From Desulfomicrobium sp. ZS1 (lineage in GTDB: Bacteria; Desulfobacterota; Desulfovibrionia; Desulfovibrionales; Desulfomicrobiaceae): DNA of 64,000 bases. The notes below the pieces were generated by a model, which ran no database searches, was not told the origin of the DNA, and saw only the letters and a list, made by a program, of their open reading frames with translations. Positions 6,147 through 19,343 of this stretch are shown here, piece by piece. Both the position numbers and the translations under genes were made by a program. Numbering within the stretch: position 1 is the stretch's first letter; each line of letters starts with the position of its first letter. Where the stretch lies: assembly GCF_024204645.1 (NCBI RefSeq), contig NZ_CP100351.1, positions 682,001 through 746,000 of the forward strand, given 5' to 3'.

Positions 6147-6185
6147 TGGCTGAGGCGTGTTTTTTTTTCGTTAATGGAGGAAGTT

Positions 6186-6725: not shown

Positions 6726-6770
6726 TTTTAAGTGATTTCTAAAGGTTGGGGCAATCCCACCCTTTTTTAA

Positions 6771-6797
6771 GCCCCGGTTCGCCGGGGCTTTTTTTTT
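6771..6797 (+). terminator. Rho-independent terminator after pal
   Basis: A GCCCCGG stem, TTCG loop and CCGGGGC stem are followed by nine T residues. This is a textbook intrinsic terminator closing the tol-pal operon. Confidence 0.95.
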
Positions 6798-6830
6798 GCG
6801 GAGTGCGCCCGGAAGGGCGCTTGAAGAATA

Positions 6831-6962
6831 GGAGCTATGGGAGAGTTATAGGAATTGTAGGACCTATAGGACTTATGGGGCCCATGTGGTGAGGATGGCT
6901 ATTCTTGTATAGGTTTCATAGGTCGCATAGGTCCTATAAGTCCCATACGTCCCATCAGTCCC
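6831..6962. repeat. Two opposed arrays of degenerate 9-bp repeats (large inverted repeat)
   Basis: The left arm (about 6831-6884) reads as 9-mers such as TAGGACCTA, TAGGACTTA and TGGGGCCCA. The right arm (about 6905-6962) reads as CATAGGTCG, CATAGGTCC, TATAAGTCC, CATACGTCC and CATCAGTCC, the reverse complement of the left-hand type. The arms could fold into a long imperfect cruciform or hairpin between the converging ends of pal and opgH. A separate short hairpin (GCGCCC-GGAA-GGGCGC) lies at 6805-6820. No coding potential is seen. Confidence 0.7.
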
Positions 6963-6969
6963 TTTCTCT

Positions 6970-9066
6970 TTAGTCCAGTCTGACTTTCCAGCGTTTTTCA
7001 AGCACATCCTGGGGCAGTTCCCAGATGTGTTCATGCAGTTTTTTCATACGCTGTCCGTCGTACAGGAGTTCTTTCTTTTCTTTCTTGCTGAGCGCCTGGG
7101 GGCCGTTGTCCATGGCTTTATCCAGGATACCGTCACGGCGCAGTTCTATTTCCGGAGACAGGGCGCGTGGTCCGCGCAGCAGGCTGAGGTGCAGGGTGTT
7201 GACCCTCGGGACCACGGACGCTCTCAGAAATCCCTCCTCGGGTGGGATGCCGAAACTGGTTCTGTCTTCGGCGATACTCTGCATGTAGCTGCCGATATCC
7301 TCGTATTCGCGAGGCAACCGGACTTCTTCCGGCGTCGTGAAGATCCGCATGCTGCGGAAAATCCGGCCAAGTTCGGCCCGGCTGGTGAGCATGGAGACCG
7401 GAATGGAGAGCAGCAGGGAAATGACCAGTGGCGAACTCCACCAGAAAAAGACCCGGTTGATCTGAAACATGGCCACGCCCCAGACAAGGCCCAGCAGCGT
7501 TCCGCCGCCGTGGAAGCGCAGCGCGTCCCAGAAGCGCGTGCCTTCGTCGTCGCGCTGCTGGGTGCCCCAACCAATGCCCATGCCCATGAGGGTCAGGAAG
7601 ACGTACTTGCTGTGAAAGAGCATGCGCACCGGGGCCAGCAGGGTGGACAAGATGACCTCTGTCAGGATGCTCCCGCACAGGGCGAAAAATCCACCAAACT
7701 GTTTGCGGCGCCCTTTGATGAGAGCCAAAAGCAGGGCGCATACCTTGGGCAGGAAAAGAATCACGGCCGTGCCCGCCAAGAGCAGCAGTGCAGGCGTAGG
7801 ATCCCAGACGGGCCAGACCGGGAAGAGGGATTTGGAGGGCGTGAAGTAGTCGGGCTGAACCATGGCCTCGGTCACGGCCGCAGCGGTGGCCAGGGCCAGG
7901 AACAGAAACCAGAGCAGGGCCGAGCCGTACGCCATGACCCCGTTCAGAAAGAGGGCGCGGTGGCCGGGAAAGATGCCGCGAGTGAAGACCAGGCGCAGAT
8001 GCTGCAGGTTGCCTTGGCACCAGCGGCGATCGCGCTTGAGTTCCGTCAGCAGATTGGGTGGAACTTCCTCGTAGCTGCCCTCAAGATCATAGGCCAGCCA
8101 GACCGAGTATCCGGCACGGCGCATGAGGGCGGATTCCACGAAGTCATGGGAAAGGATGTCGCCGCCCAGCGGCGGCTTGCCCGGCAAGCGTGTCAGGGCG
8201 CAATGCTTCATGAAGGGCTTGACCCGGATAATGGCGTTGTGCCCCCAGAACTGCGCGTCTCCCAGGAACCAGTGGTGCAGGCCTGCCGCGTACATGGGTC
8301 CGTAGGCCCGGTTGGCGAACTGCTGGGCGCGGGCAATGAGGGTCTCGCGACCTGTGCAGGCCGGAGCTGTTTGCAGGATGCCGACGTTCCGCCTGCGTTC
8401 CATGATGCGCACCATGCGGATGAGCGTTTCCCCGGACATGACGGAGTCGGCGTCAAAAACGATCATGTAGGTGTAATGGGCGCCGTAGCGGCGGCAGAAA
8501 TCGGCGACGTTGCCGCTTTTGCGTTTCAGATTGACGCGCCGACGACGGTAGAAAATGTGACCATGCGCGGAGAGGTCATCGCATAGCCTGCTCCAGGCCG
8601 CCTGTTCCTGCACCCAGCGGTCCGGATCGTTCGAATCGCTTAGGATGTGAATGTCGAATCTGTCCGCCGCGCCAAGCCTGATCAGGGAGCGCCAGACGGC
8701 CTGGATGCCGGCCATGATCCGTTCCGGGTCCTCGTTGCAGACGGGGAAGAGGATGGCGGTCTTGACGTGAGCGCGGATGGCCGCGTCGAGTTCCCCGCGC
8801 GAGCGTGTCACGGCGAAGCGGTCGTCTTTCTTGAGCAAGGTCCAAAAGCCGGCCAGGGCAGTCCAGAAACCGAGCGAGATCCAGATGAAAAGCACGCAAT
8901 AGACAAAGATGATGCTCGCTTCGAGATAGGTGGTCCCCCGGTGCGGGAGGAGCGAACCCATGACGCTGGCGGCAACCAGGGCCGGAGTCAGGACCAGGAT
9001 CAGGAGAAGAAGTCTGCGGCGGCTGGCGATCTTGCGCCAGGGTTCGTTTAAAAATTCTCGTTTCAT
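6970..9066 (-). CDS. opgH: Glucans biosynthesis glucosyltransferase OpgH (MdoH)
   Basis: Inner-membrane GT2-family glucosyltransferase that polymerises the beta-1,2-glucan backbone of osmoregulated periplasmic glucans from UDP-glucose. Membrane helices lie near residues 18-40 and 50-75. The catalytic region has FPVCNEDPER, the DxD-type FDADSVMSGETL and the RDRRWCQGN signature, and further helices follow. It is 698 residues and in frame throughout, lacking only the long N-terminal extension of E. coli MdoH. The 14 bases at its start codon are one core repeat of the adjacent integrated element. Upstream there is therefore element DNA with no clear Shine-Dalgarno, while its natural AAGGA site and operon partner opgG now lie 9.67 kb away. 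Confidence 0.93.
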   Translation of the reverse strand: MKREFLNEPWRKIASRRRLLLLILVLTPALVAASVMGSLLPHRGTTYLEASIIFVYCVLFIWISLGFWTALAGFWTLLKKDDRFAVTRSRGELDAAIRAHVKTAILFPVCNEDPERIMAGIQAVWRSLIRLGAADRFDIHILSDSNDPDRWVQEQAAWSRLCDDLSAHGHIFYRRRRVNLKRKSGNVADFCRRYGAHYTYMIVFDADSVMSGETLIRMVRIMERRRNVGILQTAPACTGRETLIARAQQFANRAYGPMYAAGLHHWFLGDAQFWGHNAIIRVKPFMKHCALTRLPGKPPLGGDILSHDFVESALMRRAGYSVWLAYDLEGSYEEVPPNLLTELKRDRRWCQGNLQHLRLVFTRGIFPGHRALFLNGVMAYGSALLWFLFLALATAAAVTEAMVQPDYFTPSKSLFPVWPVWDPTPALLLLAGTAVILFLPKVCALLLALIKGRRKQFGGFFALCGSILTEVILSTLLAPVRMLFHSKYVFLTLMGMGIGWGTQQRDDEGTRFWDALRFHGGGTLLGLVWGVAMFQINRVFFWWSSPLVISLLLSIPVSMLTSRAELGRIFRSMRIFTTPEEVRLPREYEDIGSYMQSIAEDRTSFGIPPEEGFLRASVVPRVNTLHLSLLRGPRALSPEIELRRDGILDKAMDNGPQALSKKEKKELLYDGQRMKKLHEHIWELPQDVLEKRWKVRLD
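9053..9066 (-). repeat. att core, left copy (overlaps opgH start)
   Basis: On the minus strand this reads ATGAAACGAGAATT, encoding the first residues (MKRE) of opgH. It is identical to 18719-18732, and the flanking bases on both sides differ between the copies, which defines a 14-bp core. Confidence 0.85.
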
Positions 9067-9100
9067 ATTTGTGCTTTATAATTCAAGTAGTTTAGGACTA

Positions 9101-9123
9101 TTACCCAACCTTAAACCCAACTC
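9101..9123. repeat. Candidate integrase arm-type sites, left end
   Basis: Two ACCCAACCT-like boxes (9103-9111 and 9115-9123) are spaced 12 bp apart. The first 21 bases match 18580-18600 at 19 of 21 positions in the same orientation. A direct repeat inside both ends of an integrase-bearing element is what arm-type binding sites look like. Confidence 0.6.
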
Positions 9124-9136
9124 TTGCCATTTTCAA
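9108..9136 (-). promoter_or_regulatory. Weak candidate promoter for displaced opgH
   Basis: On the minus strand TTGAAA (9131-9136), a 17-base spacer and TAAGGT (9108-9113) lie between the element's terminator and opgH. The -10 match is poor (3 of 6). It overlaps the candidate arm sites, so integrase could compete with RNA polymerase. This is speculative. Confidence 0.22.
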
Positions 9137-9209
9137 CGCCCGTAAACTGGCTTTTCACCGTTGGGCGGGACACGCGGGTTTTCGTCGATTTCCCTGTAGT
9201 TGTCATCAC

Positions 9210-9246
9210 AAAAAAAAGCGGCCGTCCAGCATCTCGCCAGACGGCC
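9210..9246 (-). terminator. Rho-independent terminator at the end of the element's late operon
   Basis: On the minus strand GGCCGTC and GACGGCC form a stem around a 13-base loop, followed by GC and eight T residues. It lies downstream of the 289-residue gene and would stop element transcription before it reaches opgH. Confidence 0.8.
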
Positions 9247-9303
9247 TCCAGGGTCGGCCGGAACATCGCGCACCAGCCTTTATGTGAATCGCGGGAGGCG
9301 ATA

Positions 9304-10173
9304 TTACACGAGAACTGCCTCGGACTTCGCCAGGGCATTGTTGACCACCTGCACCCACTGGGCCGCGTTGCCGTCAAAGCCTTCCAGCCCAAGCGCCTGA
9401 AGTCCGTAATTCGTCCCGGCCTCCATCGTCGCCAGTCGAGCGCCGGCAGCTTCGAGGATGCGCTTGTGCTGCTTCCAGTCGAACAGCAGCCACTCTCCGC
9501 CTTGGGCCATGATAGCGGCCTCACGAGCACCGGCCAGCACTTCAGCGGACGCGGCCTCACGTTTCAGCGGGTCACTCTTCAAACTGTGCAACGGTTCAAG
9601 CGCGCCCTTTGCGCCAAGTTCCAGCAGCAGCTTGGCGCAAGCGCCCGGCTCCATGCCAAGGACAGCTTCACGGCACTCACGAGCGCGGGCCTCTACCACT
9701 TCCGGCGTCATGCCTTCAGTCTCCGGCACCAGGGCCAGCCCGATCAGGATTTCAATGTCACGCAGCCCATTTTGCAGGTTGAGCAAATACTTACTTGCCG
9801 CAGCTATCCACTTGACGCGGGCCGGTTCAATCGCCTTGAGCGCCTCGTTACGGCGCGCCTCGTTGGTGAAACGTGTATCCGCCATGATGTTCTTCACGGA
9901 TGAAATGGCGGGCGTCATGGCGTCCTGATAGGCAGCGAAAAGGGACTTCTCAAAGTCCATCAGGGCGTTGCGCAAATACTCATCGTCACGCTTGACCAGG
10001 TTCTGCATGTTCGCGTTGCTCTTCGGGTCGAATCCGGTCTGGGACAAGACATATTCGAGGGTTGCCGCATATTCGGGCCTCATGCCTAGAGTCTTCCTCT
10101 CTTCGGGATTGCTCTTGCGCACTACGCGGCCGCCAATTTCGACACGTCCATTTTCAAAATTCTTGATTGCCAT
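9304..10173 (-). CDS. Hypothetical element protein, 289 residues
   Basis: I do not recognise this protein. It is soluble, mostly helical and rich in Ala, Glu and Leu, with no signal peptide or membrane segment. It opens MAIKNFENGRVEIGGR and ends near WVQVVNNALAKSEAVLV. It is the last and largest gene of the operon that begins with the Ogr-like regulator, and the start has AAGGA about 10 bases upstream. In P4-like satellites this position is often used for genes that manipulate a helper phage (capsid-size or packaging factors), but nothing in this sequence proves such a role. Confidence 0.75.
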   Translation of the reverse strand: MAIKNFENGRVEIGGRVVRKSNPEERKTLGMRPEYAATLEYVLSQTGFDPKSNANMQNLVKRDDEYLRNALMDFEKSLFAAYQDAMTPAISSVKNIMADTRFTNEARRNEALKAIEPARVKWIAAASKYLLNLQNGLRDIEILIGLALVPETEGMTPEVVEARARECREAVLGMEPGACAKLLLELGAKGALEPLHSLKSDPLKREAASAEVLAGAREAAIMAQGGEWLLFDWKQHKRILEAAGARLATMEAGTNYGLQALGLEGFDGNAAQWVQVVNNALAKSEAVLV

Positions 10174-10212
10174 GATCGTAAATCCTTGCCCGGTCTCGGG
10201 CGGTTGAAATTT

Positions 10213-10485
10213 TTATCCGATAAACCATGAATCAAAATCCGGTTCGCCTGGCAGGGCTTCACCCCACATTGACGTGCATCCCGGCGGATACGTCACGAAA
10301 CTTATCTGTTGCCGATGCACTCGCCAGTAATAATCAGCGGCCTCTTGCCGGGTCTTGAATCCAGCCCATGGGCCTTTGGGGTCTCTCTCGTCGTATTCCA
10401 GGACGGCGGGAAGGTTCTGCTGCCCTTGGGGCAGTTCGTGGGACATTTTGCGCAGGCGAGCGCGTAGCGCCTGGGTTCCTCTCAC
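10213..10485 (-). CDS. Hypothetical element protein, 90 residues
   Basis: Small unrecognised protein. The first 25 residues are basic, followed by an aromatic-rich half (DYYWRVHRQQISFV, and a C-terminal PDFDSWFIG). It overlaps the preceding gene by 4 bases, so it is translated as part of the same late-type operon. No motif was found that suggests a function. Confidence 0.6.
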   Translation of the reverse strand: MRGTQALRARLRKMSHELPQGQQNLPAVLEYDERDPKGPWAGFKTRQEAADYYWRVHRQQISFVTYPPGCTSMWGEALPGEPDFDSWFIG

Positions 10486-10763
10486 CGGTAATCCTCCCGC
10501 GTGGGAATGGGCTCTTTCGTGCAGTCGTAAACCTCGACACAGACGACGAATCCATGCACTGCCGGGTCAAAGTAGCGGTCCAGTAGCTCTTGCCTCGTGT
10601 CGAAAAATCCGCCCTCGGGATTGCCGTCCGCGTCCTTCTTACTGAGGTGGATCTTTCCACCGACGCGGGTTTCGTCAAAGATTAACAGCGGCGGCTTCCA
10701 GGGTTCGCGGTCCATCGCCACAGACTCAAGTCGATCTCTCATTTTGCGCAGCGCCGGCTTCAT
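10482..10763 (-). CDS. Hypothetical element protein, 93 residues
   Basis: Unrecognised small protein, with a basic, helical N-terminus (MKPALRKMRDRLE) and a mixed alpha/beta remainder. It overlaps both neighbours by 4 bases, which supports real translation in a coupled operon. No membrane segment and no cysteine motif typical of a zinc finger are present. Confidence 0.6.
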   Translation of the reverse strand: MKPALRKMRDRLESVAMDREPWKPPLLIFDETRVGGKIHLSKKDADGNPEGGFFDTRQELLDRYFDPAVHGFVVCVEVYDCTKEPIPTREDYR

Positions 10764-10981
10764 GCTTGCACCTCGTTGTCATCGCCAAGGGTTAAGAACA
10801 GCACCATATCAATGGCTCGCTCGGGCCGAGCTAGATACTCCGGTACGGGCCATGGGCGGCCGGTTCCATGCTGCAACTCCCGACCATCTGGATGCGCGTC
10901 AACAAGCCAGAATTGAGGGGTAGGCTTCGCGCCTGGCAGTCTCCGCAGCCGTCGCCGTAGGGTTGATGATCCGGCTACCAT
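10760..10981 (-). CDS. Hypothetical element protein, 73 residues
   Basis: Small unrecognised protein with an Arg-rich N-terminus (RRRLRRLPG). It overlaps the DUF5681 gene upstream by 7 bases and the next gene by 4. Support comes from its position in the overlapping gene chain rather than from similarity. Confidence 0.55.
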   Translation of the reverse strand: MVAGSSTLRRRLRRLPGAKPTPQFWLVDAHPDGRELQHGTGRPWPVPEYLARPERAIDMVLFLTLGDDNEVQA

Positions 10982-11445
10982 CGCTTGTTCCTCGGGGCCG
11001 CGTCTTCGAGCTCGCTCAGTCTCTCGGCTATTTGCTGATACTCGAAGGCTTCAAGGTAGGTCCGCAGCATCTTGACCAGCATGTCGCCCTCGCCTGGGAC
11101 AATCTGACCACCGGCCACGGCTTTGAAGATCTTCCCAAACACCTGGCCCGCGTTCTCTGCGTTGATTTTTGCAGGCAGCTTGATTGCATCGCCGTCGATA
11201 GCTCTTTCCTTGAGCGGCGGGCAGATCCGCTCCATGCAGATGCGAAGGGCGGTTGTGTCGCCTTCCAGGGCTAGATCCACGCACTTGCGCGTCAGGGCCT
11301 CGGCTTCGCCGTCGAGAAGCACCTGGGCCGCCCTGGTTGCCTTGTTCCGGCATCCCTTGGGCTTTCCAGCGGGGTTTCCTGACCTACCCTTGGGAAAGGG
11401 CTTGCCTGGTCCTTTCTGCTGATCCTGTGCTGCATTATCAGCCAT
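10975..11445 (-). CDS. DUF5681 domain-containing protein
   Basis: A 156-residue protein whose N-terminus has the DUF5681 signature PFPKGRSGNPAGKPKGCRNK, a basic Gly/Pro-rich motif seen in many phage and mobile-element proteins. A helical remainder follows, and a C-terminal segment (YQQIAERLSELEDAA) could form a coiled coil. The family's function is unknown; its place near packaging genes in phages suggests DNA binding. It overlaps the Ogr-like gene by 8 bases, making it the second gene of that operon. Confidence 0.8.
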   Translation of the reverse strand: MADNAAQDQQKGPGKPFPKGRSGNPAGKPKGCRNKATRAAQVLLDGEAEALTRKCVDLALEGDTTALRICMERICPPLKERAIDGDAIKLPAKINAENAGQVFGKIFKAVAGGQIVPGEGDMLVKMLRTYLEAFEYQQIAERLSELEDAAPRNKRW

Positions 11446-11662
11446 TGGTTACGGCCTCGCACAACTCCGCACCGCGACGTTGCAGGGGTCTTCTATCGTA
11501 GCAGCGAACCATTTCGCCCGTCCAAATAGTCAAGAAACGCTGCCCACAGTCCTGGCACTCGAAACGCTGCTGGACGCACCACCCCGAAAGGTTGATCGGC
11601 CCCTGCAACTTGTACGTTGCTTCACTCCCGCAAGTCGGACATGGTATCCGTGGTTTTTTCAT
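11438..11662 (-). CDS. Ogr/Delta-like zinc-finger transcriptional activator
   Basis: A 74-residue protein with paired cysteine motifs CPTC and CQDC followed by GQRFLT. This is the arrangement of the P2 Ogr / P4 Delta family of late-gene activators; P2 Ogr is about 72 residues, so this is the single-domain form. ATG 11662 is chosen because AAAGGAGG lies just upstream; the longer open frame runs through the promoter. In P2/P4 these proteins activate phage late promoters. Here it heads the operon at the left end of the element, and one inverted repeat lies upstream of its own promoter. Confidence 0.82.
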   Translation of the reverse strand: MKKPRIPCPTCGSEATYKLQGPINLSGWCVQQRFECQDCGQRFLTIWTGEMVRCYDRRPLQRRGAELCEAVTNG

Positions 11663-11677
11663 GCGTTCGCCTCCTTT

Positions 11678-11746
11678 GTGCAGAATCATAGCAAGTCTTG
11701 TTTTCTGTACAAGCGAACCAAGTGCAGATTTACAATTACTGCACTT
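11678..11746 (-). promoter_or_regulatory. Candidate activator-dependent promoter with dyad upstream of the Ogr-like gene
   Basis: On the minus strand, TATGAT (11685-11690) is a good -10 box. A poor -35 (TTGTAC, 11707-11712) lies 16 bases away. Further upstream is the perfect dyad AAGTGCAG-N11-CTGCACTT (11720-11746), and another CTGCAC half-site overlaps the predicted start (11678-11683). The dyad centre is about 55 bp before the predicted start. That matches the Ogr/Delta binding distance in P2/P4 promoters, although the P2 sequence TGT-N12-ACA is not present. Confidence 0.5.
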
Positions 11747-11862
11747 TTTATAGACGTTGACGGCCAAGACATTGCAGTCTCGGAGTTGGGTATGTGGTCG
11801 GGTCGGGATGATATTTTCCTGTAAATTCATTTTGTTATCTGTCCTGCTCTTGAATTTGAAAT

Positions 11863-12021
11863 TCATCTGCTTCGAGAAATGCGCTCTCGCAGTTCCTTGA
11901 CTTCGGCCTGTAGCTTCACGATCTCTGCCCATAGCTTCGTGGTTCGTGCATCCAGCCTGGAATCCATCACGGCCACTTCATCTTCGAGCGTGGCCACTCG
12001 TTCGGATAAATCAGCCTTCAT
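11863..12021 (-). CDS. Small coiled-coil protein, 52 residues
   Basis: This short frame opens MKADLSERVATLEDEVAVMD and has heptad-like Leu/Val spacing to its end, typical of a short coiled coil. It overlaps the upstream gene by 11 bases and ends just before the promoter of the Ogr-like operon. Function unknown; it could be a phage-type accessory protein. Confidence 0.5.
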   Translation of the reverse strand: MKADLSERVATLEDEVAVMDSRLDARTTKLWAEIVKLQAEVKELRERISRSR

Positions 12022-12238
12022 GCTTCACCCCCAGATCCTCGGAAACTGCGACATGCAGGAATGCCGTCTGTGTATGCTTCGGAAGCGCCCGCCAGGTAGA
12101 GACCATCTCGTTGACGTGTTGAGCGTTCCACCACGGCATCCCGATTGAACCACCGCCAAGCATGAGAAAAAAACCGTCCTTCTCAGCCAAGCGGGCGTCC
12201 ACCCATAGCTGCAATAGACGTTCGGTCATTGCGTCCAT
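12011..12238 (-). CDS. Hypothetical element protein, 75 residues
   Basis: Unrecognised. Features that can be seen are a Gly-rich stretch (MLGGGSIGM) followed by a Trp pair (PWWNAQHVNEM). The start has GGGAGGT 7 bases upstream and overlaps the previous gene by 13 bases. A downstream ATG three codons in is less well placed. It lies in the primase-helicase operon. Confidence 0.55.
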   Translation of the reverse strand: MDAMTERLLQLWVDARLAEKDGFFLMLGGGSIGMPWWNAQHVNEMVSTWRALPKHTQTAFLHVAVSEDLGVKHEG

Positions 12239-12534
12239 GGTGTACCTCCCTTGCCCGGGCCAGGATGGCAGATGGAGCAGATGCGCAGACCATAATCCGA
12301 GGTCCAGAATTCACGATGGCGGGCGTATCCGGTCGGGCATTGCCACTGATCAGGCGCGGAAACCTCGACGCGCTTCCGGGTTAACTCGTTGATGATTGCG
12401 GTCTTGTGTTCTTGCAGCAGGGGAAGGACAGCGGCCACTGCCTGGGCCTCGCCTTGGTAGCGAAGCCGGCCGTCACGGATGGAAAGGGCCACGCCATGAG
12501 ACGCGGCCTCGTTGATGACTTCGCGGGGGGTCAT
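12226..12534 (-). CDS. TubC-type docking-domain-like protein
   Basis: A 102-residue protein. Residues 1-50 (REVINEAASHGVALSIRDG onward, with a helical LLQEHKTAIINEL) resemble the TubC N-terminal docking domain, a small protein-interaction fold known from NRPS/PKS subunits and also seen in mobile-element proteins. The second half has CPTG and CSIC cysteine pairs that might bind zinc. It overlaps the primase-helicase gene by 4 bases, which suggests it partners the replication protein. Similarity was judged by eye. Confidence 0.55.
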   Translation of the reverse strand: MTPREVINEAASHGVALSIRDGRLRYQGEAQAVAAVLPLLQEHKTAIINELTRKRVEVSAPDQWQCPTGYARHREFWTSDYGLRICSICHPGPGKGGTPWTQ

Positions 12535-14693
12535 AGGATGCCCTCCACGATTTGAGAGTTTCCGTTCCTTAAAGAATCTATTCCGAGTATTCCGACTTGT
12601 CCGTCTGTACCTTCTGGAGAAGTAACACTCGGAACACTCGGAGTACTTCCACCACTAGGAACACTCGGAATGAGAGAATACATTCCGTACCCAACAGAAA
12701 ATAAAAAACCTTCTTCGACCAGTTTTTTAATAAGCTTTCCTGTGTTGGAAGGAGTCTTACCAAGTGTACTGGCCACCATGTTGGGGCTCAGGCTTCCGCC
12801 GTCATCCCTAAACGCCTGCAGGATGGCCAATCGCTCTGGAGTCAGGTCCACTTCATCCTCGTTGGCATAGCCGGAGCAGGACCAGCCCGGATTGCTCCAT
12901 GCGAGCTCATACGAATGGCCTTCAATGTCTCGCCCCGTTGTTTGCAGGGTTGCGGTCGAGGCACCACGCTTGCGGGTTAAGAGCATGGCCGTGTCAGCCG
13001 TGCCGAACTGCCCCATGCTGCCGGTGATGTTGTCGAAGGGATCTTTTGAGGTGCGCAGTTTTGATAGGTGCGTCACGATCAAAATGCAGATGCCGTGCTT
13101 GTCCGCCATGGACTTGATGCGCGTCATGATGATGCTGTCGCTCTCGTAGGCATTCAAGCCCTTGCTCTTGGACTTCGGACCGACCTTGGCAAGAGTATCG
13201 ATGACAACCAGCTTCAGCCCGTTGGGCACGTTCTCTTCGACGTAGGATTCCAATTTCTCCAGACCGCCTTCGTCGTCGAATCGCGGCCAGGTGATTTGAA
13301 AATCCACGTTCGAGAGCCCGGACTTGATAGCGGGCTCGTTCCGAAACAGGGCTTTCATGCGGTCCTGTAGTCGCCGTTTGCCGTCTTCCAGGGCCAGGTA
13401 AAGGCTCTTTGCCTGGGGCGTCTGGAAATGGCCTAGGACGCGGCATCCCGCGCCCATTCCTGCACAAATGGAATAGATCAGCCAGGACTTGCCCAACTTC
13501 GGGCCACCGGCCAGGATAGCCAGTCCTTGGGGGAGTAAATCAGGGACTGCCCAACGGACCTCTGGCAGATCCATTTCGAGCAGATCCGCACCGTTGAAGA
13601 TCCCGGCAAGGCATTCCTGGGCATGGTTTTCCTTGGCCGCGTTCTTCCCGGCCTTCTGTCCGCCGTCACGGTTCCAATCACTCTCACCTTCCGGCGTTCC
13701 ATACCCCTGCGCAGACAGATCCTTGGCCGCCGCCGCGAAGTCTCCGTCATGCTCAAGCATGGCATAGACAGAGAAAGGGGCGTAAGCCTCGTAGGGCTCG
13801 AAAGGATGGCTGTTAGAGCTGAAGGGGTAGAAGATGCGCTCGTCGGTCAGCGTGGCGCTTGTGCCGCCCGTCTTGCCCGGCCTGGCCAGATGAATCCGGT
13901 CTCCGATCTGTTTGACGAAAGTCCATCCATGCTTTTCGAGAATGGGCAGGATTTCGCCTCGGGCGTTGAAGTCGTCGCCGGGGCGGTTGCCGTCTGCCGT
14001 CCTCGCCTCGCTCTTGAGCTTGGGCGCTTTTGGCTCGGGGAAGTAGGTCTCGAACTCCCTGGCCAGGGAAAGCAGGTAGTCGACTTCCTCATCTTCGAGC
14101 AGGGGCATGGACAGGATCTTGCCCTGTAACAACTCATAGCCAGGCGACGGAGCACAAACACAATACGCGCCCATTCCGGCGGTCGCGCCTCTGGTCTCGA
14201 TGGCGTCGGGGTTGATGATCCACTTCCCGCGATGCTCGAAAGCCTTGAATGACTTCTTGGGCCTGTTGTCAGGGTCGATTGGCTTGCCGCCGCCGTCATA
14301 CTCGCCGGGGCATTCGACCTCGATCACTTGGTGGGCGAGCTTCTGGGTCATGAAGGGGCGCTTGGTCCTGACCCAGATATGAGCGCCGGCATTCATGGTC
14401 TTCTCAACCGTGAGGCGTGCCCATAACTCGTGGCGCTCTGCCATTACCCTGGCCTTGTAAGCCTCGAAGAATAGACCGGCCTGGTCAAAGTCGATGGCTA
14501 GCACCGGATTGACCTCGCAGCCGCAGATCAAACCTACCATGGGATTGCCCCAAAGCTCTATTTCACCCGGCGTCGGGGGGCGGTCCTTGATCTTCTCTCG
14601 GTTGATAATCGGCTTTTTGTCGCCTCGGCATCCGATCGGATGTAAACCACGCTCTAGGGCCAGCTTGGCGAAATCTTTAACCAATACGCTCAT
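12531..14693 (-). CDS. Primase-polymerase / RecA-like helicase replication protein
   Basis: A 720-residue fusion. The N-terminal third has a Prim-Pol-like catalytic motif (VLAIDFDQ) and GAHIWVR. The central domain is a RecA/RepA-type ATPase with Walker A GGPKLGKS and Walker B LKLVVIDTL, then ILIVTHLSK. The C-terminus looks like a winged helix (LGKTPSNTGKLIKKLVEEGF). This is the architecture of autonomous replication proteins of satellites and plasmids, like P4 alpha in role. ATG 14693 is used because AAGGGGG precedes it; the longer frame upstream crosses another gene. Confidence 0.85.
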   Translation of the reverse strand: MSVLVKDFAKLALERGLHPIGCRGDKKPIINREKIKDRPPTPGEIELWGNPMVGLICGCEVNPVLAIDFDQAGLFFEAYKARVMAERHELWARLTVEKTMNAGAHIWVRTKRPFMTQKLAHQVIEVECPGEYDGGGKPIDPDNRPKKSFKAFEHRGKWIINPDAIETRGATAGMGAYCVCAPSPGYELLQGKILSMPLLEDEEVDYLLSLAREFETYFPEPKAPKLKSEARTADGNRPGDDFNARGEILPILEKHGWTFVKQIGDRIHLARPGKTGGTSATLTDERIFYPFSSNSHPFEPYEAYAPFSVYAMLEHDGDFAAAAKDLSAQGYGTPEGESDWNRDGGQKAGKNAAKENHAQECLAGIFNGADLLEMDLPEVRWAVPDLLPQGLAILAGGPKLGKSWLIYSICAGMGAGCRVLGHFQTPQAKSLYLALEDGKRRLQDRMKALFRNEPAIKSGLSNVDFQITWPRFDDEGGLEKLESYVEENVPNGLKLVVIDTLAKVGPKSKSKGLNAYESDSIIMTRIKSMADKHGICILIVTHLSKLRTSKDPFDNITGSMGQFGTADTAMLLTRKRGASTATLQTTGRDIEGHSYELAWSNPGWSCSGYANEDEVDLTPERLAILQAFRDDGGSLSPNMVASTLGKTPSNTGKLIKKLVEEGFLFSVGYGMYSLIPSVPSGGSTPSVPSVTSPEGTDGQVGILGIDSLRNGNSQIVEGIL

Positions 14694-14815
14694 TTCTGCC
14701 CCCTTTGTTGGGTAAACGGGTAGGGTAGAAATGAACTCGCAAACGATGACGACACGTTGTAGCAGATGGACATGAACAAGGGATTCAAGAGGCGGGTCGG
14801 GGCGTGACAATGCTT

Positions 14816-14827
14816 GACAAATTTGTC
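14816..14827. promoter_or_regulatory. Perfect 12-bp palindrome upstream of the replication gene
   Basis: GACAAATTTGTC lies in the 240-bp gap between the HTH gene and the primase-helicase gene, about 125 bp before the latter. A related TGACAA occurs ten bases to the left. It could be an operator for the AlpA-like protein or another regulator. Confidence 0.35.
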
Positions 14828-14882
14828 TATATTTGCCACATTTTCCTTGCGGTTGTTTGGATAACCTCCGCGCCCGGTCTCT

Positions 14883-14910
14883 AAATCCCGTCCTTGCCCG
14901 GCGGGATTTT
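14883..14910. terminator. Hairpin AAATCCCG...CGGGATTT after the HTH gene
   Basis: An 8-bp perfect stem with an 11-base loop. The T-run (TTTTTCTTTT) is on the plus strand, while on the minus strand, the direction of the genes, only TTTAGAG follows. It may act as a weak or attenuating terminator. Confidence 0.4.
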
Positions 14911-14932
14911 TCTTTTGCACCATATCCACCCC

Positions 14933-15112
14933 CTACGCTGCCGGGTTGATAGTGCGGGATGCGACGTAGGCGTCGAGGTCTGCGACGTTGTAGCGGACGC
15001 TCCGACCCAGTTTGATGAACTTTGGGCCGCGTCCATAGCATCGGCACTGCTGCATCCACTTGACACTCATCCCAAGATACTTGGCCGCCTGCTTCTCGTT
15101 CCATCTTTCCAT
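14933..15112 (-). CDS. AlpA/Vis-like helix-turn-helix regulator (excisionase family)
   Basis: A 59-residue protein opening MERWNEKQAAKYLGMSVKWM and continuing through YGRGPKFIKLGRSVRYN to VADLDAYVASR. This is the MerR-like DNA-binding fold of AlpA, Vis and excisionase (HTH_17) proteins. In P4, Vis both represses satellite genes and promotes excision; a matching dual role here is inference. TGGAG lies 7 bases before the start. Immediately upstream is the terminator of the preceding gene. Confidence 0.85.
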   Translation of the reverse strand: MERWNEKQAAKYLGMSVKWMQQCRCYGRGPKFIKLGRSVRYNVADLDAYVASRTINPAA

Positions 15113-15130
15113 GGTTATGCTCCAGAAAAG

Positions 15131-15168
15131 TAAAAAGCCGAAAACTGCGGGATTGCAGTCTTCGGCTT
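15131..15168 (-). terminator. Rho-independent terminator between cargo gene and HTH gene
   Basis: A 14-bp stem with one G-U pair (AAGCCGAAGACTGC / GCAGTTTTCGGCTT on the minus strand) has a 6-base loop and is followed by TTTACTTTT. It ends the upstream 200-residue gene only about 20 bases before the start codon of the AlpA-like gene. Confidence 0.8.
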
Positions 15169-15244
15169 GGAAAATAAGAGAGCTCGAAGGTACTAGGTTA
15201 TGTTTTTATATGTGGTAGTATTTGGCAATAACTAACTGTCTGAT

Positions 15245-15847
15245 TTATTTAAATCTAAGTTCAATCCAGTCAAGACAGGGCTTTGCGAGTTTAACACACC
15301 TCGGATGGATGGATTGGACCCATCGACGGTAGCCCTCACTGTCAATGGTCAGTTCGTTGTCAGATAATCTACGGTAAATCTCTCTGAACTCGCCGCAAAG
15401 TATAGCTTTTCGATATTTCCAGCAAAATTTTATAAATGTGTCAGAGTCTTTTTGCATAATGACAGTTGATTGACTGCAAAATTTGCGTGCAGCAGCGTCA
15501 ACTGGTCTTGTTGACTGCCCGTCTATAGTCTCATCAACTCTTAGAACTCCTAGCCATTCGGCATAAGATTCATTCATGCTTCTTTCTTGGAGTTTCTGTC
15601 TTTCCGTCTTAGGGACTCGCTTCGCTGGTTTTTTAAACGCCAAGAGGTCGCACACAGCAATTCCCAGATCAGCGGGGAGAGAATGTCCGTTCTCAAACGT
15701 CTTGCGCAGAGCCCACAGGATAGCGTCTTTGTCTTGCTCTTCATCCTCAACTACCATCTGAACAAGAGTTAGATTTGGATCTCCTGTATCCCTCAAGAGG
15801 GAACCTATGGCAGGCTCATATCCAAGCAATTTTTCCCAATGCGCCAC
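15245..15847 (-). CDS. Hypothetical cargo-like protein, 200 residues
   Basis: Unrecognised soluble protein with charged, helical stretches, a basic linker (KKPAKRVPKTERQKLQ) and a C-terminal half rich in Cys and aromatic residues (FIKFCWKYRKAILCGEF). Its G+C is clearly lower than that of the genes on either side (about 40-45% by eye), and it has its own terminator, both signs of an independently acquired cargo gene. Satellites often carry anti-phage genes in such positions, but no defence motif is visible. The true start could be internal. Confidence 0.65.
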   Translation of the reverse strand: MAHWEKLLGYEPAIGSLLRDTGDPNLTLVQMVVEDEEQDKDAILWALRKTFENGHSLPADLGIAVCDLLAFKKPAKRVPKTERQKLQERSMNESYAEWLGVLRVDETIDGQSTRPVDAAARKFCSQSTVIMQKDSDTFIKFCWKYRKAILCGEFREIYRRLSDNELTIDSEGYRRWVQSIHPRCVKLAKPCLDWIELRFK

Positions 15848-15876
15848 AAGCCACCTCCGCTTGCACCTGAGAAGAT

Positions 15877-15940
15877 CCAGGGCCGGGGGTCAGGTAAACC
15901 CCTTTTCGCCGTCGATGATCAGTCAGCGGCTAGGCCCTGG
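15877..15940. repeat. Intergenic inverted repeat CCAGGGCC...GGCCCTGG
   Basis: An 8-bp perfect stem spans about 48 bases in the gap between two element genes. The loop contains a smaller GGGG/CCCC pairing. There is no T-run, so it is a structured intergenic segment rather than a clear terminator. Confidence 0.35.
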
Positions 15941-15950
15941 AAAGAATGAT

Positions 15951-16181
15951 CTACTGTTGCGGTTCCTCGGGCTTGACCAGATCCATCGCCCGGTCAACGC
16001 GTTCACTGACATGCGTCATGGATGTGGACACAAGATCCAGGCCCTTGTAGGCGGCGTCTGGGTCTGCCGTCATCTTCTCGGGCGTCCAATGAGCTACATG
16101 GTCGGCAAGGGCCACGAGGGCAGCGTGGACGGCCTGCAATTCGGCCTGTGCAAGCGTTGTGCGCAGTTCGTTGGTTGTCAT
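15951..16181 (-). CDS. Hypothetical element protein, 76 residues
   Basis: Unrecognised small, Ala-rich helical protein (LRTTLAQAELQAVHAALVAL). It starts with GGGAGGTGAG upstream and an ATGA overlap with the previous gene. It is the last of four small overlapping genes between the integrase and the cargo gene. Confidence 0.55.
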   Translation of the reverse strand: MTTNELRTTLAQAELQAVHAALVALADHVAHWTPEKMTADPDAAYKGLDLVSTSMTHVSERVDRAMDLVKPEEPQQ

Positions 16182-16381
16182 GGTCTCACCTCCCGTTGCA
16201 TCTCCGCAATCGGTCCCACAAGACTGTCGAGCTGTCTTGTGATGCCGTCGAGGATTTCAGCCGCCGGGCTGTCTCCGTTCGCCTTCATGGCGTTGACCAA
16301 CCATCCAAGGTTGATTGCAATCCTGGCCACTTCAATCTCGATGTCAATTTTCTTGTCTTCGATGATCTGTGCTGCTCCCAT
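16178..16381 (-). CDS. Hypothetical element protein, 67 residues
   Basis: Small helical protein opening MGAAQIIEDKKIDIEIEVAR. GAGGAGGTG upstream gives a strong ribosome-binding site. No known domain is recognised; position in the coupled array supports that it is translated. Confidence 0.55.
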   Translation of the reverse strand: MGAAQIIEDKKIDIEIEVARIAINLGWLVNAMKANGDSPAAEILDGITRQLDSLVGPIAEMQREVRP

Positions 16382-16383
16382 GA

Positions 16384-16800
16384 CTACACCTCCTCAGAAA
16401 GAATGCTTTCCACTACACCGGCCAACTTATCCGCGCCGGGCTCGTTGCTGATAACCAGCCTTGCGCCCTTGATCATCGTGTCGATCACCTTGTCCTTGCG
16501 GGCCGCCTCGGTCCGTTCCTCTTCAGTTGGACGCAACCGGCGATTGACGTCTTCCTCTTCAACGCGAGCCCGGAGAGCTTCTACCTGGGCCACGGATGCG
16601 GACATGAGCCGATGCCATGCGTCAACGTCGAATTCGTAGTCATTCCACGTCAAAGCCTTCCATGCCTGTGTCAGCACGTCCAGCTCGCCATGGATGCGGC
16701 CAAGTTCGCTTTCTGTTTCGCTCACAAGCTTTTGCATCGCTTGATATGCGGCCTTGGGATCTGCCAATTCGTGATTGATTGCTGTTGCGGTACTAGCCAC
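16384..16800 (-). CDS. Hypothetical element protein, 138 residues, coiled-coil
   Basis: A Glu/Arg-rich, strongly helical protein with likely coiled coils (AYQAMQKLVSETESELGRI and LRARVEEEDVNRRLRPTEEE). GTG 16800 is chosen because AGGAGG sits about 7 bases upstream and it overlaps the preceding stop by 8 bases; an ATG at 16830 lies upstream of that ribosome-binding site. Function unknown. Confidence 0.6.
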   Translation of the reverse strand: MASTATAINHELADPKAAYQAMQKLVSETESELGRIHGELDVLTQAWKALTWNDYEFDVDAWHRLMSASVAQVEALRARVEEEDVNRRLRPTEEERTEAARKDKVIDTMIKGARLVISNEPGADKLAGVVESILSEEV

Positions 16801-16993
16801 GGGACACCTCCTGCGCAGCAGCGCGGGCAATGATCAGGTTCATCTCAGCCATGCCGACACGCAGAGCGCCAATCTGGCGAGGGAAAAGGGCGGGGACTGT
16901 CGACATGATAGCCAGGGGGGTCTTGCCGTCCTGGCAGCGTACGACGTGGACCTTGCAAACCGTGGGAACTGAATTTAGGGACTGTCTAGCCAT
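16793..16993 (-). CDS. Hypothetical element protein, 66 residues
   Basis: Unrecognised small protein. The start has AGGAGGTTC at proper spacing, which is the main support. It contains two cysteines (VCKVHVVRC) and an Ala-rich helical C-terminus. It is translationally coupled to the next gene by an 8-base overlap. Confidence 0.5.
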   Translation of the reverse strand: MARQSLNSVPTVCKVHVVRCQDGKTPLAIMSTVPALFPRQIGALRVGMAEMNLIIARAAAQEVSRG

Positions 16994-17081
16994 GATGAAC
17001 CTCCTGTCGGTTCGTTGCGGTTAGGGCCTTGTGGGAAGTTGGCGCTTCCCGCTTGGCCTGTTTATTTTGGCCTTGAAATTT

Positions 17082-17321
17082 CTATTCGTCCGCCATTTCC
17101 TCGAAAGCCTTGATTGCCCCGAGCTTGACCGCCAAGTCCCTGAGAGAGACGCGAGAGTCTACGACCTCATTCTTTGACGTATCCAAGATGTAGGCATCGC
17201 CTAGGTTCGAGCGTTCGCCTTGGCTGCGGGAGACTCGAAAAGTCTTCTCTTCCTTCGCCAAGATCCTGTTCACTCGGGCCAGTACGGCGCGATGACTGAC
17301 GGGGACTTTCTTCTGTTCCAT
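17082..17321 (-). CDS. Hypothetical element protein, 79 residues
   Basis: Small basic protein starting MEQKKVPVSHRAVLARVNRI. The pattern of a basic helix, then charged beta-like segments (AYILDTSKNEVVDSR) and a helical end, is common in small phage regulators, but no family is recognised. ATG 17321 is favoured because GAGGTGA is adjacent; an ATG at 17351 would add ten residues but has no ribosome-binding site. It is the first gene downstream of the integrase. Confidence 0.55.
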   Translation of the reverse strand: MEQKKVPVSHRAVLARVNRILAKEEKTFRVSRSQGERSNLGDAYILDTSKNEVVDSRVSLRDLAVKLGAIKAFEEMADE

Positions 17322-17423
17322 TTTCACCTCGGGGTTCTGTGTTGCTTCCATGAGTTTACGAATATGTGTTTATGTGAAAACATGCAAGCATTATTTCGTG
17401 AAAATGTGAAGTTGTGTCAAAGA

Positions 17424-18560
17424 TTATTCCTTCCCGGCCACCACTTTCAGCGCCGGGCCTGGGGTCATTACGTCGTCGGCCACAGACGCGGCCCTGCGCA
17501 GCGTGTCGTCTGCCAAGTGCGCGTACCTCTGCGTCATGGCGGGCGTGGCATGGGTCAGCATTTGTTGCAGCGTGAACAGATCCACCTTGCCGGAGCTGGC
17601 CAGCATTGACGCGAACGTATGCCGTAGTCCGTGACATGGGCGGAAGTCCTCGGGCAGTCCTGCCGCCTTTCTGATCCTTGCGCCCCAGAGTCCGACATCT
17701 CTAAACCCGCCTCGCGAGCTTGGCCATACATAGCCGTCGTCGTTCCGTGGCATTGCCTCGAAGATCCTGATCGCAGCAGCGGGGAGGGGAACAGACTTGG
17801 CCTTTCCACTTTTGGCGGTCTGAGCCCGCAGGGTCAAAAAACCCTTGGCCAGATCCAGATCTTCCCACCGCACCGCAGCCAGAGCCCGGCGTCTAATTCC
17901 GGTCAGCAGCATGATGCGAAAATAATCTGCTATATGCTGATCGTCCCACTCTTCGAGCGCCTGCCAATAGCGGGTCAGTTGCTCGGGGGTCATGCACTCA
18001 GTCCGCTGGTTATCGAATTTTGGGAACTCGAAGCGCAGGCCGGGATCTTTGATCAATTCCTGCTCGCCACCCCACCGCAGCAGTTGAGCCAGCAGGGCCA
18101 TATTAATTTTGACGGTTGCAGGGGAGAGGTTGCGCTGTTCGAGGTCGCGGCGGAATCTTGTCACGTCAAAGTTGCAGATCTCTTCAGCCACGCGCTTTCC
18201 GAAAAAACGGCCAAGGTGGATCTTGTATCTGCTGATAGTAGAGTCGAGCCCTCGCGTATGCTTCCGGCCTTCGAGCCACTTTTCCCAGAGTTGGGCCACA
18301 GTCAGCAGCGGCCGGGCGTCGTCCTTTGTATTTGTGACAGCGGCAATTCGACGTGATCGCCATGCGCTGGCCTCCTGGGGGGTCTCCGCTGGTCGGGTCT
18401 CGGGGCCGTCGTCGATCAGCACTTTTGCTGCCTCTTCGTAGACTTTCCCGTCACGCTTAAAGACGACGTAGTAGCGTCGGACGGGCTTGCCCGTGGTGGA
18501 CTTGCCTTCAGTATAGTAAACACCTGGATATTTTGTCTTATTTCTGCCCTGTGCTGCCAT
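17424..18560 (-). CDS. int: Tyrosine recombinase / phage-type integrase
   Basis: A 378-residue integrase with three recognisable parts: an N-terminal arm-binding region (about residues 1-80), a SAM-like core-binding domain (about 85-185, with VAQLWEKWLEGRK), and a catalytic domain. The catalytic residues are visible: the first Arg in LLTGIRRRAL, Lys in AKSGKAKSVPLP, the box-II HGLRH, and the nucleophile Tyr in MTQRYAHL. It lies at the right end, pointing inward, next to candidate arm sites and the right core repeat, so it is the likely recombinase for integration and excision at the opgH start. Confidence 0.93.
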   Translation of the reverse strand: MAAQGRNKTKYPGVYYTEGKSTTGKPVRRYYVVFKRDGKVYEEAAKVLIDDGPETRPAETPQEASAWRSRRIAAVTNTKDDARPLLTVAQLWEKWLEGRKHTRGLDSTISRYKIHLGRFFGKRVAEEICNFDVTRFRRDLEQRNLSPATVKINMALLAQLLRWGGEQELIKDPGLRFEFPKFDNQRTECMTPEQLTRYWQALEEWDDQHIADYFRIMLLTGIRRRALAAVRWEDLDLAKGFLTLRAQTAKSGKAKSVPLPAAAIRIFEAMPRNDDGYVWPSSRGGFRDVGLWGARIRKAAGLPEDFRPCHGLRHTFASMLASSGKVDLFTLQQMLTHATPAMTQRYAHLADDTLRRAASVADDVMTPGPALKVVAGKE

Positions 18561-18579
18561 GTCTGATCGCCTCCAGTTT

Positions 18580-18602
18580 TTACCCTACCTAAAACCCAAC
18601 CT
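18580..18602. repeat. Candidate integrase arm-type sites, right end
   Basis: Two boxes, ACCCTACCT (18582-18590) and ACCCAACCT (18594-18602), are spaced 12 bp apart, exactly as at the left end. The 21 bases from 18580 match the left copy at 19 positions. They lie just upstream of the integrase gene. Confidence 0.6.
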
Positions 18603-18705
18603 GCAAGGCAAAATTAGGTGAAAATGGGGAGAATGGCAAGAAAAGAAAATGAGCTTAGGCAATGAATATCAAGGATTGAGAAGGAATAGAGAGAAGTTGA
18701 GAGAA

Positions 18706-18714
18706 ACCCTACCT
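18706..18714. repeat. Third ACCCTACCT box, 4 bp inside the right core
   Basis: It is identical to the box at 18582-18590 and immediately adjoins the 14-bp core. It may be a further integrase-binding site. Confidence 0.45.
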
Positions 18715-18718
18715 GATG

Positions 18719-18732
18719 AATTCTCGTTTCAT
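18719..18732 (-). repeat. att core, right copy (old opgH start with native ribosome-binding site)
   Basis: On the minus strand ATGAAACGAGAATT is preceded by AAGGA and a 5-base spacer, the original translation signal of opgH. In the integrated state this start leads only to seven residues (MKREFIR) and a stop. Confidence 0.85.
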
Positions 18733-18848: not shown

Positions 18849-19343
18849 CTAGCGCAAGGTCGCGTCGAGAATATAGAGTCCTGCGAGCAGGAGCGCGTAC
18901 TGAAAAATATCGATCAGGCGCGTGTTGAAAAAATACGCGGTTATGTTCCAAAGAGGCCGCCCAAGTCGCAAAAACACGCGCACCCAGGGCCGCCTGTCCA
19001 TCTCTTCGGGTTTCATGTGCATGCGTTGCAGTGGCGGTCCCGGCACCACGAAAAGTGGAATCGGCTGCTCCGCCAGGAGCTCCCGCAGGATGGTCATGGC
19101 TCTGGCTTCGGCCTGGGACGGGTTGTTGCCGGGGTCTTCCGCCAGCGCGGTCAGCGTCTTCAAGGCCAGTTCGTGGCGGCTTTTCTCCGGCAAGGGCAGA
19201 TGCCGCAGATAGGCCGCGATCCTGCGGCCCGCTGCTTCCAGCCTGGTCTCGAGGATCGTGGCCGCTGTCTCGACTGGAGGGCGGAAGACGCCTGAATTGC
19301 AGGCGTCGTACGGCAGAGGAGGCTCCGTGGTTTTGTTTTTCAT
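18849..19343 (-). CDS. Small membrane-anchored protein of the opgGH operon
   Basis: A 164-residue protein with a helical soluble part (residues 20-90) and one C-terminal membrane segment (IDIFQYALLLAGLYIL). Its ATG shares one base with the opgG stop, so the two are coupled. Before the element inserted, opgH started about 116 bases downstream. OpgH here lacks the long N-terminal extension found in E. coli MdoH, so this gene may supply an equivalent accessory or membrane function; that is an inference. No family is recognised. An upstream ATG at 19367 is possible but lies inside opgG. Confidence 0.75.
   Translation of the reverse strand: MKNKTTEPPLPYDACNSGVFRPPVETAATILETRLEAAGRRIAAYLRHLPLPEKSRHELALKTLTALAEDPGNNPSQAEARAMTILRELLAEQPIPLFVVPGPPLQRMHMKPEEMDRRPWVRVFLRLGRPLWNITAYFFNTRLIDIFQYALLLAGLYILDATLR

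Follow-up and report, generated by a model that had tools for sequence, protein, structure and literature searches.

An integrated element resembling phage-inducible chromosomal islands at the start of opgH in Desulfomicrobium sp. ZS1

Introduction

The best-described phage satellites are those of Enterobacteria, Vibrio and Gram-positive cocci. What kind of element, then, stands at the start of opgH in the sulfate reducer Desulfomicrobium sp. ZS1, and by what route could it spread? It occupies positions 9053-18732 of a 64,000-nucleotide stretch of contig NZ_CP100351.1 (positions 682,001 to 746,000, forward strand), hereafter the window, which comes from a complete 3.87-Mb genome. A preliminary description of this DNA read the element as a P4-like satellite, possibly of a new family, with an Ogr/Delta-type activator and an implied P2-like helper phage. 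Our analysis points instead to an integrated phage satellite resembling phage-inducible chromosomal islands (PICIs), an assignment that we consider probable, and not to a P4-type element; the predicted gene order is best fitted by Gram-negative PICIs, better than by P4-like satellites.

Excerpts of PMC8146710 list Desulfomicrobium baculatum DSM 4028 among single lysogens and suggest that 17 unclassified prophages of sulfate reducers may be remnants or satellite viruses. Searches of the open-licence literature on Desulfomicrobium and Desulfovibrio satellites, whose scope makes them no proof of absence, returned no description of the elements reported here, and a search there for satellites together with DUF5681 found no paper on the two; DUF5681 is a protein family central to this work.

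Results and Discussion

Boundaries and insertion site

The element forms a unit of 9,666 bp bounded by two 14-bp copies of AATTCTCGTTTCAT. A close relative, G002, carries the empty site, with a single core at which the two flanks overlap by exactly 14 bp (G and L numbers are our handles for genomes and for loci or contigs). The identical cores and this empty site bear out the coordinates first proposed: the element is inserted at the 14-bp core in the opgH start and bears the marks of site-specific recombination. The relevant sites are as follows.

9053..9066, no strand: left attachment core, the first 14 bp of opgH including the start codon; single copy in the G002 empty site
18719..18732, no strand: right attachment core, identical to the left 14-bp copy
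9101..9121, no strand: left copy of a 21-bp repeat just inside the left end, possible integrase arm site
18580..18600, no strand: right copy of the 21-bp repeat, 19/21 identical to the left copy, possible integrase arm site
9220..9246, minus strand: hairpin resembling a terminator (12 pairs, T8 tail), in the gap between opgH and the last gene of the element

One flank is opgH (6970-9066, minus strand; named from the label in the preliminary description and from gene position), and the other is a 172-aa gene followed by opgG (18849-20899, minus strand; Pfam MdoG). These three genes are contiguous, with the opgH site uninterrupted, in 10 of 10 related genomes sampled, which were picked from the 15 other genus genomes searched since the DNA search showed their flank. 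The G+C content of the element is 55.6%, against 59.7% in the remainder of the window, and the 21-bp repeat has only these two copies in the window at up to five mismatches. The region has 11 terminator-like hairpins, against 11.8 in shuffled sequence, and is not enriched in them.

In the G002 empty site the ATG of opgH is directly preceded by AAGGAACTTC, and in the window element DNA stands there. Because element DNA replaces the opgH leader, carriage of the element may lower or rewire opgH expression, perhaps altering host glucan synthesis.

Gene content and layout

All likely genes lie on the minus strand. The integrase comes first, followed by five or six small genes, the AlpA/HTH_17 gene, the replication protein, three small genes, a zinc-ribbon gene, DUF5681, three genes for proteins with a basic N-terminus and, last, a 289-aa gene. 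The annotations below draw on Pfam and PHROGs scans of 20 proteins, 18 of them open reading frames (ORFs) of the element, and on protein searches of 20 fetched loci; HTH stands for helix-turn-helix.

17424..18560, minus strand: tyrosine integrase, 378 aa (Pfam PF00589, 5.6e-19; phrog_1, 6.1e-59)
17082..17321, minus strand: conserved small gene, 79 aa (homologue in L026, 49%)
16793..16993, minus strand: small ORF, 66 aa, uncertain (gene call; no homologue in the 20 loci searched)
16384..16800, minus strand: conserved small gene, 138 aa, probably helical (three homologues in related elements, 62-72% identity)
16178..16381, minus strand: conserved small gene, 67 aa (homologues in L027, L028, L032 and L033)
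15951..16181, minus strand: conserved small gene, 76 aa (66-71% identity in L025, L027, L032 and L033)
15245..15847, minus strand: 200-aa gene with no assigned role (homologue in L030, 47%)
14933..15112, minus strand: AlpA/excisionase-like HTH regulator, 59 aa (Pfam HTH_17, 5.7e-9; phrog_66, excisionase and regulator, 5.1e-6)
12531..14693, minus strand: replication protein, 720 aa (Pfam AAA_25, 2.7e-21; phrog_19930, DNA polymerase/primase, 2.5e-32)
12226..12534, minus strand: 102-aa gene, weakly TubC_N-like (Pfam 3.9e-4, below cut-off; L031 homologue, 58%)
12011..12238, minus strand: 75-aa gene (L031 homologue, 63%)
11863..12021, minus strand: coiled-coil-like gene, 52 aa, conserved in the family (matches in 8 of the 20 loci searched)
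11438..11662, minus strand: zinc-ribbon protein, 74 aa (generic zinc-ribbon matches; start at 11662 behind AAAGGAGG)
10975..11445, minus strand: DUF5681 protein, 156 aa, candidate terminase small subunit (Pfam PF18932, 1e-13)
10760..10981, minus strand: small gene of the post-DUF5681 group, basic N-terminus, 73 aa (position and N-terminus, by eye)
10482..10763, minus strand: small gene of the post-DUF5681 group, 93 aa (position and N-terminus, by eye)
10213..10485, minus strand: small gene of the post-DUF5681 group, 90 aa (L040 homologue, 55%)
9304..10173, minus strand: last gene, 289 aa, helical in a low-confidence model (28% and 23% identity to homologues)

The integrase, AlpA-like and primase-helicase genes named in the preliminary description are thus supported by profile matches, with about twelve small genes besides. 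The replication protein joins a primase/polymerase-type N-terminus to a RepA/DnaB-like AAA_25 helicase (PrimPol/RepA type). The zinc ribbon, which weakly matches FmdB, NrdR, Lar and IS1595-type ribbons, sits near the place where relatives have a Mor/C-type activator, and homologues of the 289-aa gene adjoin a scaffold gene in L026 and a small-terminase gene in L029; no relatives of the 289-aa protein were found in phage records or viral contigs.

Nothing credible emerged for capsid, portal, large terminase, tail, lysis or relaxase in the scans of the 18 element ORFs, and neither the phage genes nor the conjugation genes that had been named as grounds for discarding a satellite were found there. 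The early statement that structural and lysis genes are missing therefore stands; the accompanying statement that packaging genes are missing is less certain, DUF5681 being a candidate. PHROGs matches of the AlpA-like gene to a small-terminase HTH (0.0064) and of the coiled coil to a tape measure (0.27) are at chance level. Ten element proteins gave no credible PADLOC match to anti-phage defence cargo, and single-protein scans of genome contigs and viral contigs with the replication protein, DUF5681 and the integrase returned no relatives.

According to the portions of PMC6092414 at hand, PICIs comprise an integrase, a regulator (of alpA or merR type in Gram-negatives), primase and rep genes, interference genes and sometimes a small terminase, and have no structural or lytic genes. 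The order int, alpA, pri/rep and packaging-like gene in the element agrees with this published layout. The element is small (9,666 bp, against typically around 15 kb in Gram-positive PICIs), it has a specific attachment site of its own that is empty in the ten relatives sampled, and its scanned ORFs include no structural or lysis genes. The divergent regulator pair of Gram-positive PICIs is absent, all genes running in one direction, and the likeness seen is one of layout. Capsid-forming PICIs (cfPICIs) carry a full capsid and packaging set, as stated in part of PMC10690885; that set (own capsid, protease, portal, connectors and terminases) was not recognised in the window element and is partly found in its relatives.

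Test of the P4-like identity

Detection of P4-like satellites in print uses seven markers, six of them Pfam profiles and one a custom Sid profile, as far as the excerpt of PMC8628076 goes. The element matches one of the six, the integrase PF00589 (5.6e-19). At E<=1 it has no match to the alpha primase-helicase PF03288, with AAA_25 (2.7e-21) found instead; none of the 20 proteins scanned (18 from the element) matches Psu PF07455 or epsilon PF10554; and AlpA PF05930 has no match at this threshold, the gene concerned matching HTH_17, for which an AlpA-like role is nevertheless likely. Ogr/Delta PF04606 is not among the 18 Pfam families that match the zinc ribbon at E<=1, and a whole-genome search with the Ogr_Delta profile found no match inside the element. 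The same profile gave one match below cut-off (4.2e-4) in the 16 genus genomes; it falls in the genome of the window, 3 Mb from the element, at a sensor-regulator gene in chromosomal surroundings where no prophage was seen. The P2-type capsid PF05125 was found in 0 of 16 genus genomes, with a positive E. coli control.

The P4-like identity was rejected on the single marker, the PrimPol/RepA rather than P4 alpha type of the replication protein, and the lack of a P2 capsid in the 16 genus genomes. That a true P4-like satellite here exploits a P2-like helper through an Ogr/Delta activator is strongly disfavoured and, in our judgement, scarcely credible. The integrase, AlpA-like gene, primase-helicase and size near 10 kb would suit it, as would a 74-aa zinc ribbon of about Ogr size and the sub-cut-off Ogr_Delta match in the window's own genome; yet that match is distant and chromosomal in its surroundings, Psu, delta, epsilon, alpha and PF05930 AlpA all go without a match at E<=1, and the capsid of the presumed helper was found in none of the 16 genus genomes. 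What had been called an Ogr/Delta-type activator is a generic zinc ribbon, and the implied P2-like helper found no counterpart.

Relatives within the genus

Counting the window's genome, element DNA has matches in 13 of 16 genus genomes (12 of the 15 others), in some through the opgH flank only. In a protein search of the 20 fetched loci, the early genes recur at different sites and with different partners, and related elements do exist. L026 combines an integrase (75%), AlpA (64%), DUF5681 (47%) and a homologue of the 289-aa gene with a scaffold gene (Pfam 4e-9). L029 has an integrase (45%), a replication gene (68%), a Mor-type activator (1.5e-6), a small terminase (PHROG 1.5e-10) and a 289-aa homologue. 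L023 joins an integrase (76%) and AlpA (90%) to a ClpP-type protease and an HK97 capsid, and L025 encodes an HK97 portal (1.5e-94), protease (7.9e-26) and capsid (6e-38). The activator of L031 matches phrog_836 (3.6e-14).

Nine HK97 capsid genes occur in 5 of the 16 genus genomes (L025, L023, L027 and L076-L081), and none in the window's genome. Judged by blastp to the L025 proteins, a ClpP-type protease lies directly upstream of the capsid in eight of the nine and a Mor-like gene on the same contig in seven; Pfam supports Mor above cut-off only in L029. The large-terminase profile gave no match on the nine contigs, several of which are short. The nine HK97 loci are read as a capsid-bearing class of the same element family. 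L084 (G004) has an integrase and a primase of this kind, with a partial large terminase at the contig end (3e-30).

Some further observations concern these genomes. L079 (G003) encodes a tape measure protein (4.5e-60) at 4936-7356, and L076, another G003 contig, a protein at 8372-10789 of similar length and start by eye; together with the viral contig L165 described below, these place tape measure proteins inside small satellite-like elements with no recognised terminase. The window's genome holds a second related element, G000:C1:2844551-2857050 (L003:9552 to L004:2051), bounded by 32-bp repeats, one of which forms the 'end' part of a tRNA-Leu gene. Besides an integrase of its own, this element has a 67-70% homologue of the 138-aa gene, an IS21-type insertion in the primase region (by eye from ORFs) and a glycine-rich 340-aa protein in common with L028. 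Near it, at L004:4783-5181, lies a low-complexity repeat encoding Arg-Asp-Gly-Gly runs.

DUF5681 loci across the order

To follow DUF5681 across the order, a profile made from the alignment of five satellite DUF5681 proteins was used on 297 genomes of 55 genera. The type is present in 37 of the 297 genomes and 13 of the 55 genera after four false-match genomes were dropped (from 41/297 and 15/55). The four places dropped lie in frames of 617-936 aa that by eye resemble Ala/Pro/Lys-rich chromosomal proteins, and with them fell the idea that fusions to larger proteins could prove the function of DUF5681.

Twenty of 48 DUF5681 places were fetched (16 good, 4 dropped), which with three genus loci gave 19 loci for examination. 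By raw count, an integrase lies within 9.5 kb of DUF5681 in all 19, with an RND-pump-like gene and sensor genes, both chromosomal, in between in L133. A small HTH regulator is near DUF5681 in 16 of 19, and a replication gene in 17, a count that omits L135 (where the query is antirepressor-like) and includes L144 and L146 without profile support. In 12 of the 19 (L132, L134 and L136-L145) an ERCC4-type nuclease gene immediately or almost immediately precedes DUF5681, at a distance of no more than 60 bp in ten of them; the profile check of this nuclease covered L132 only (1.5e-21). Some loci were counted through their own queries and so qualify by construction (integrase 3, HTH 4, ERCC4 3, replication 8 including L135). 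A large-terminase profile, used on 32 of the 41 matched genomes, gave one match within 20 kb of DUF5681, in G017 and helicase-like by eye; many contigs in that search were short, which limits its power. Downstream of DUF5681, L138 has an endolysin match (1.7e-21), L139 a lytic tail protein (1.2e-32) and L141 both an endolysin (3.2e-30) and a tail injection transglycosylase (1.7e-12).

Downstream of DUF5681 stand small genes, frequently several in a row, whose products have an N-terminal L..R(L)..(L)E motif. The motif is present in 10 of the 19 loci; its genes lie at 10213-10981 in the window and in L035, L132, L136, L139-L144 and L146. Genome G112 holds two related elements (L136:615-9019 and L137:926-9240), each with a 566-582-aa and a 2204-2218-aa protein after DUF5681, and the large L136 protein has a match (4e-126) to a phage family that is uncharacterised.

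DUF5681 in viral contigs and plasmids

A DUF5681 relative was found on 16 IMG/VR contigs, among which L050 and L051 are near copies by eye and L166 and L167 overlap. In 6 of the 16 a large terminase follows it on the same strand: immediately in L049, L053 and L163, within 0.5 kb in L052, and within 4.5-5.5 kb in L051 and L054. The L050 contig ends 0.9 kb past DUF5681. Integrases are present in L165, L168, L169 and L170, and a replication-type gene precedes DUF5681 in L161, L165 and L169; L165 has a tape measure after DUF5681 (7.9e-48, 10843-13344), and L170 an endolysin-type protein (3.9e-45). One further contig, L164 (6547 bp), encodes DUF5681 and what by eye resembles a resolvase, and has a terminal repeat of 127 bp; it may represent a satellite genome in circular form. 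In the faecal record MT836812 (8.7 kb), DUF5681 is followed at some distance by a gene for a long tail-like protein; this record, an unannotated scaffold, was not weighed.

DUF5681 is also found on five records of a plasmid collection. The 15.6-kb plasmid pWc (L160) of Waddlia chondrophila, a relative of the chlamydiae, has integrase, helicase, primase and DUF5681 in a satellite-like order, and a Methylobacterium plasmid a Toprim/ATPase/DUF5681 set.

Helper phage and alternative explanations

With the profiles used, a resident helper prophage is not recognisable in the window's genome. A broad large-terminase profile gave a single weak match there (2.7e-6) and was also positive in 11 of 14 control genomes; the match is probably a chromosomal ATPase, because counterparts with like scores occur in most genus genomes. 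Satellite-bearing genomes with no possible helper have been reported, according to the accessible part of PMC11389934. An activator encoded by a prophage in G004 shares 31% identity (7e-14) with the Mor-like one of L025, and this homology to a Mu-like prophage activator hints at Mu-like helpers for the Mor-bearing relatives. The region L083 (G004:C16:1-20000) is by eye a Mu-like prophage, a possible helper type.

Several points weigh against a satellite that packages through DUF5681. The element is known from sequence alone, its excision, replication and transfer being predicted; profile searches of the window's genome found no P2, HK97 or Mu gpT capsid and no Terminase_6N; and the proximity of integrase and DUF5681 is a raw count. 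Among the viral contigs, the L053 protein has no PF18932 match at E<=0.01, the L051 terminase match is below cut-off, and L167 has, 2.2 kb after DUF5681, a separate small terminase (6.2e-34) and a large terminase (3.7e-95). A DUF5681 protein is listed in the particle proteome of a Salmonella phage, in the available portion of PMC8954984, and the annotation of Felixounavirus Alf5 shows no terminase closer than 4 kb to DUF5681. Structure models help little: that of DUF5681 (7 sequences) has a pLDDT (predicted local distance difference test) of 64.6 and a meaningless best fold match (E 2.6), and that of the 289-aa protein, built with no alignment, is unusable (mean pLDDT 50.6).

Since a similar gene set occurs on plasmids, a helper-free replicon is possible, that is, an integrative plasmid-like element that spreads without phage hijacking. 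The Waddlia and Methylobacterium plasmids and the lack of a recognised helper fit such a replicon; we consider it unlikely, as those plasmids may themselves be satellites, the Pfam and PHROGs scans recognised no relaxase or conjugation gene, and relatives bear capsid, portal, scaffold, terminase, tape-measure or ejection-type genes and are present in IMG/VR viral contigs. A decayed prophage stripped of its structural genes seems more improbable again: its phage-type integrase and primase would be explained, as would the incomplete head modules of some genus relatives, but the genes are intact and tightly packed between intact ends, and the same early families recur across sites and genomes with different late modules, a compact recurrence not expected of a remnant. 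A quite conceivable alternative, to which we give somewhat less than even weight, keeps the satellite and makes DUF5681 a virion-associated or DNA-processing protein, with packaging through a helper site or another gene. The separate small terminase of L167, the particle proteome (PMC8954984, in the part available), the Felixounavirus annotation and the ERCC4-type nuclease nearby in 12 of 19 loci all favour this view, whereas the relatives directly before a large terminase in L049, L053 and L163 do not, nor does L029, in which a real small terminase adjoins the 289-aa homologue much as DUF5681 nearly does in the window. Packaging through DUF5681 is the likeliest mechanism, at only a little better than even.

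Proposed mechanism and significance

For the PICI-like satellite, the following course is proposed by analogy with Gram-negative PICIs. A helper phage, infecting or induced, would trigger the AlpA-like regulator; the element would then excise, be replicated by its own primase-helicase and have its DNA packaged into helper particles. Less certainly, DUF5681 might be the element's small terminase subunit, steering the helper's large terminase to satellite DNA, and the 289-aa last gene might encode a virion- or assembly-related factor. The zinc ribbon may substitute for the Mor/C-type activator of relatives.

On the best reading, the element is a satellite with a new modular makeup, a variant of a known satellite type, that belongs to an order-wide lineage. 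The early suggestion of a possible new family survives to the extent that relatives are spread over the order and that our literature searches found no description of them; the PICI-like layout itself was already known. A bolder proposal, which we put forward tentatively and with more doubt than belief, is a distinct satellite lineage of Desulfovibrionales and beyond, whose defining genes are the integrase, the AlpA-like regulator, the primase-helicase and DUF5681, to which the ERCC4 nuclease and small paralogues are often added, and whose late modules are freely swapped: packaging only, scaffold, HK97 capsid with protease, tape measure, or genome-ejection proteins with lytic domains. If true, satellites could supply single virion parts for tail length or DNA delivery, beyond capsid or terminase alone.

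If satellites of one family are common among sulfate reducers, then phage parasitism shapes bacteria relevant to corrosion, the sulfur cycle and the gut. Such a family would also give a handle on DUF5681, a widespread unnamed protein family, and the mix of late modules within one genus offers a natural way to see which virion parts a satellite has to provide.

Comparison with known systems

Set beside pWc and the DUF5681 plasmids of Methylobacteriaceae, the element has in common DUF5681 with small genes after it, an upstream primase (pWc) or Toprim gene (M. currus plasmid) and the integrase of pWc and pCMU02; those are circular plasmids of distant hosts, with ParA on pWc and pCMU02. With P4-like satellites it shares the integrase, AlpA-like gene, primase-helicase and size, and it differs in having no match to Psu, delta, epsilon or alpha and no P2 helper found. 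cfPICIs are approached by the genus relatives, in which homologous integrase, AlpA or coiled-coil genes accompany an HK97 capsid and protease (in one also a portal); the window element itself has no capsid gene, and the capsid-bearing relatives have no large terminase on their partly short contigs. From Gram-negative PICIs such as EcCICFT073 the element departs in the PrimPol/RepA type of its replication protein, in DUF5681 as its candidate terminase and in a host within Desulfovibrionales, while it resembles them in the integrase at one end, the AlpA-type regulator before a primase-replication gene, the packaging-like gene after it, the lack of recognised virion or lysis genes, an attachment site of its own and a size near 10 kb.

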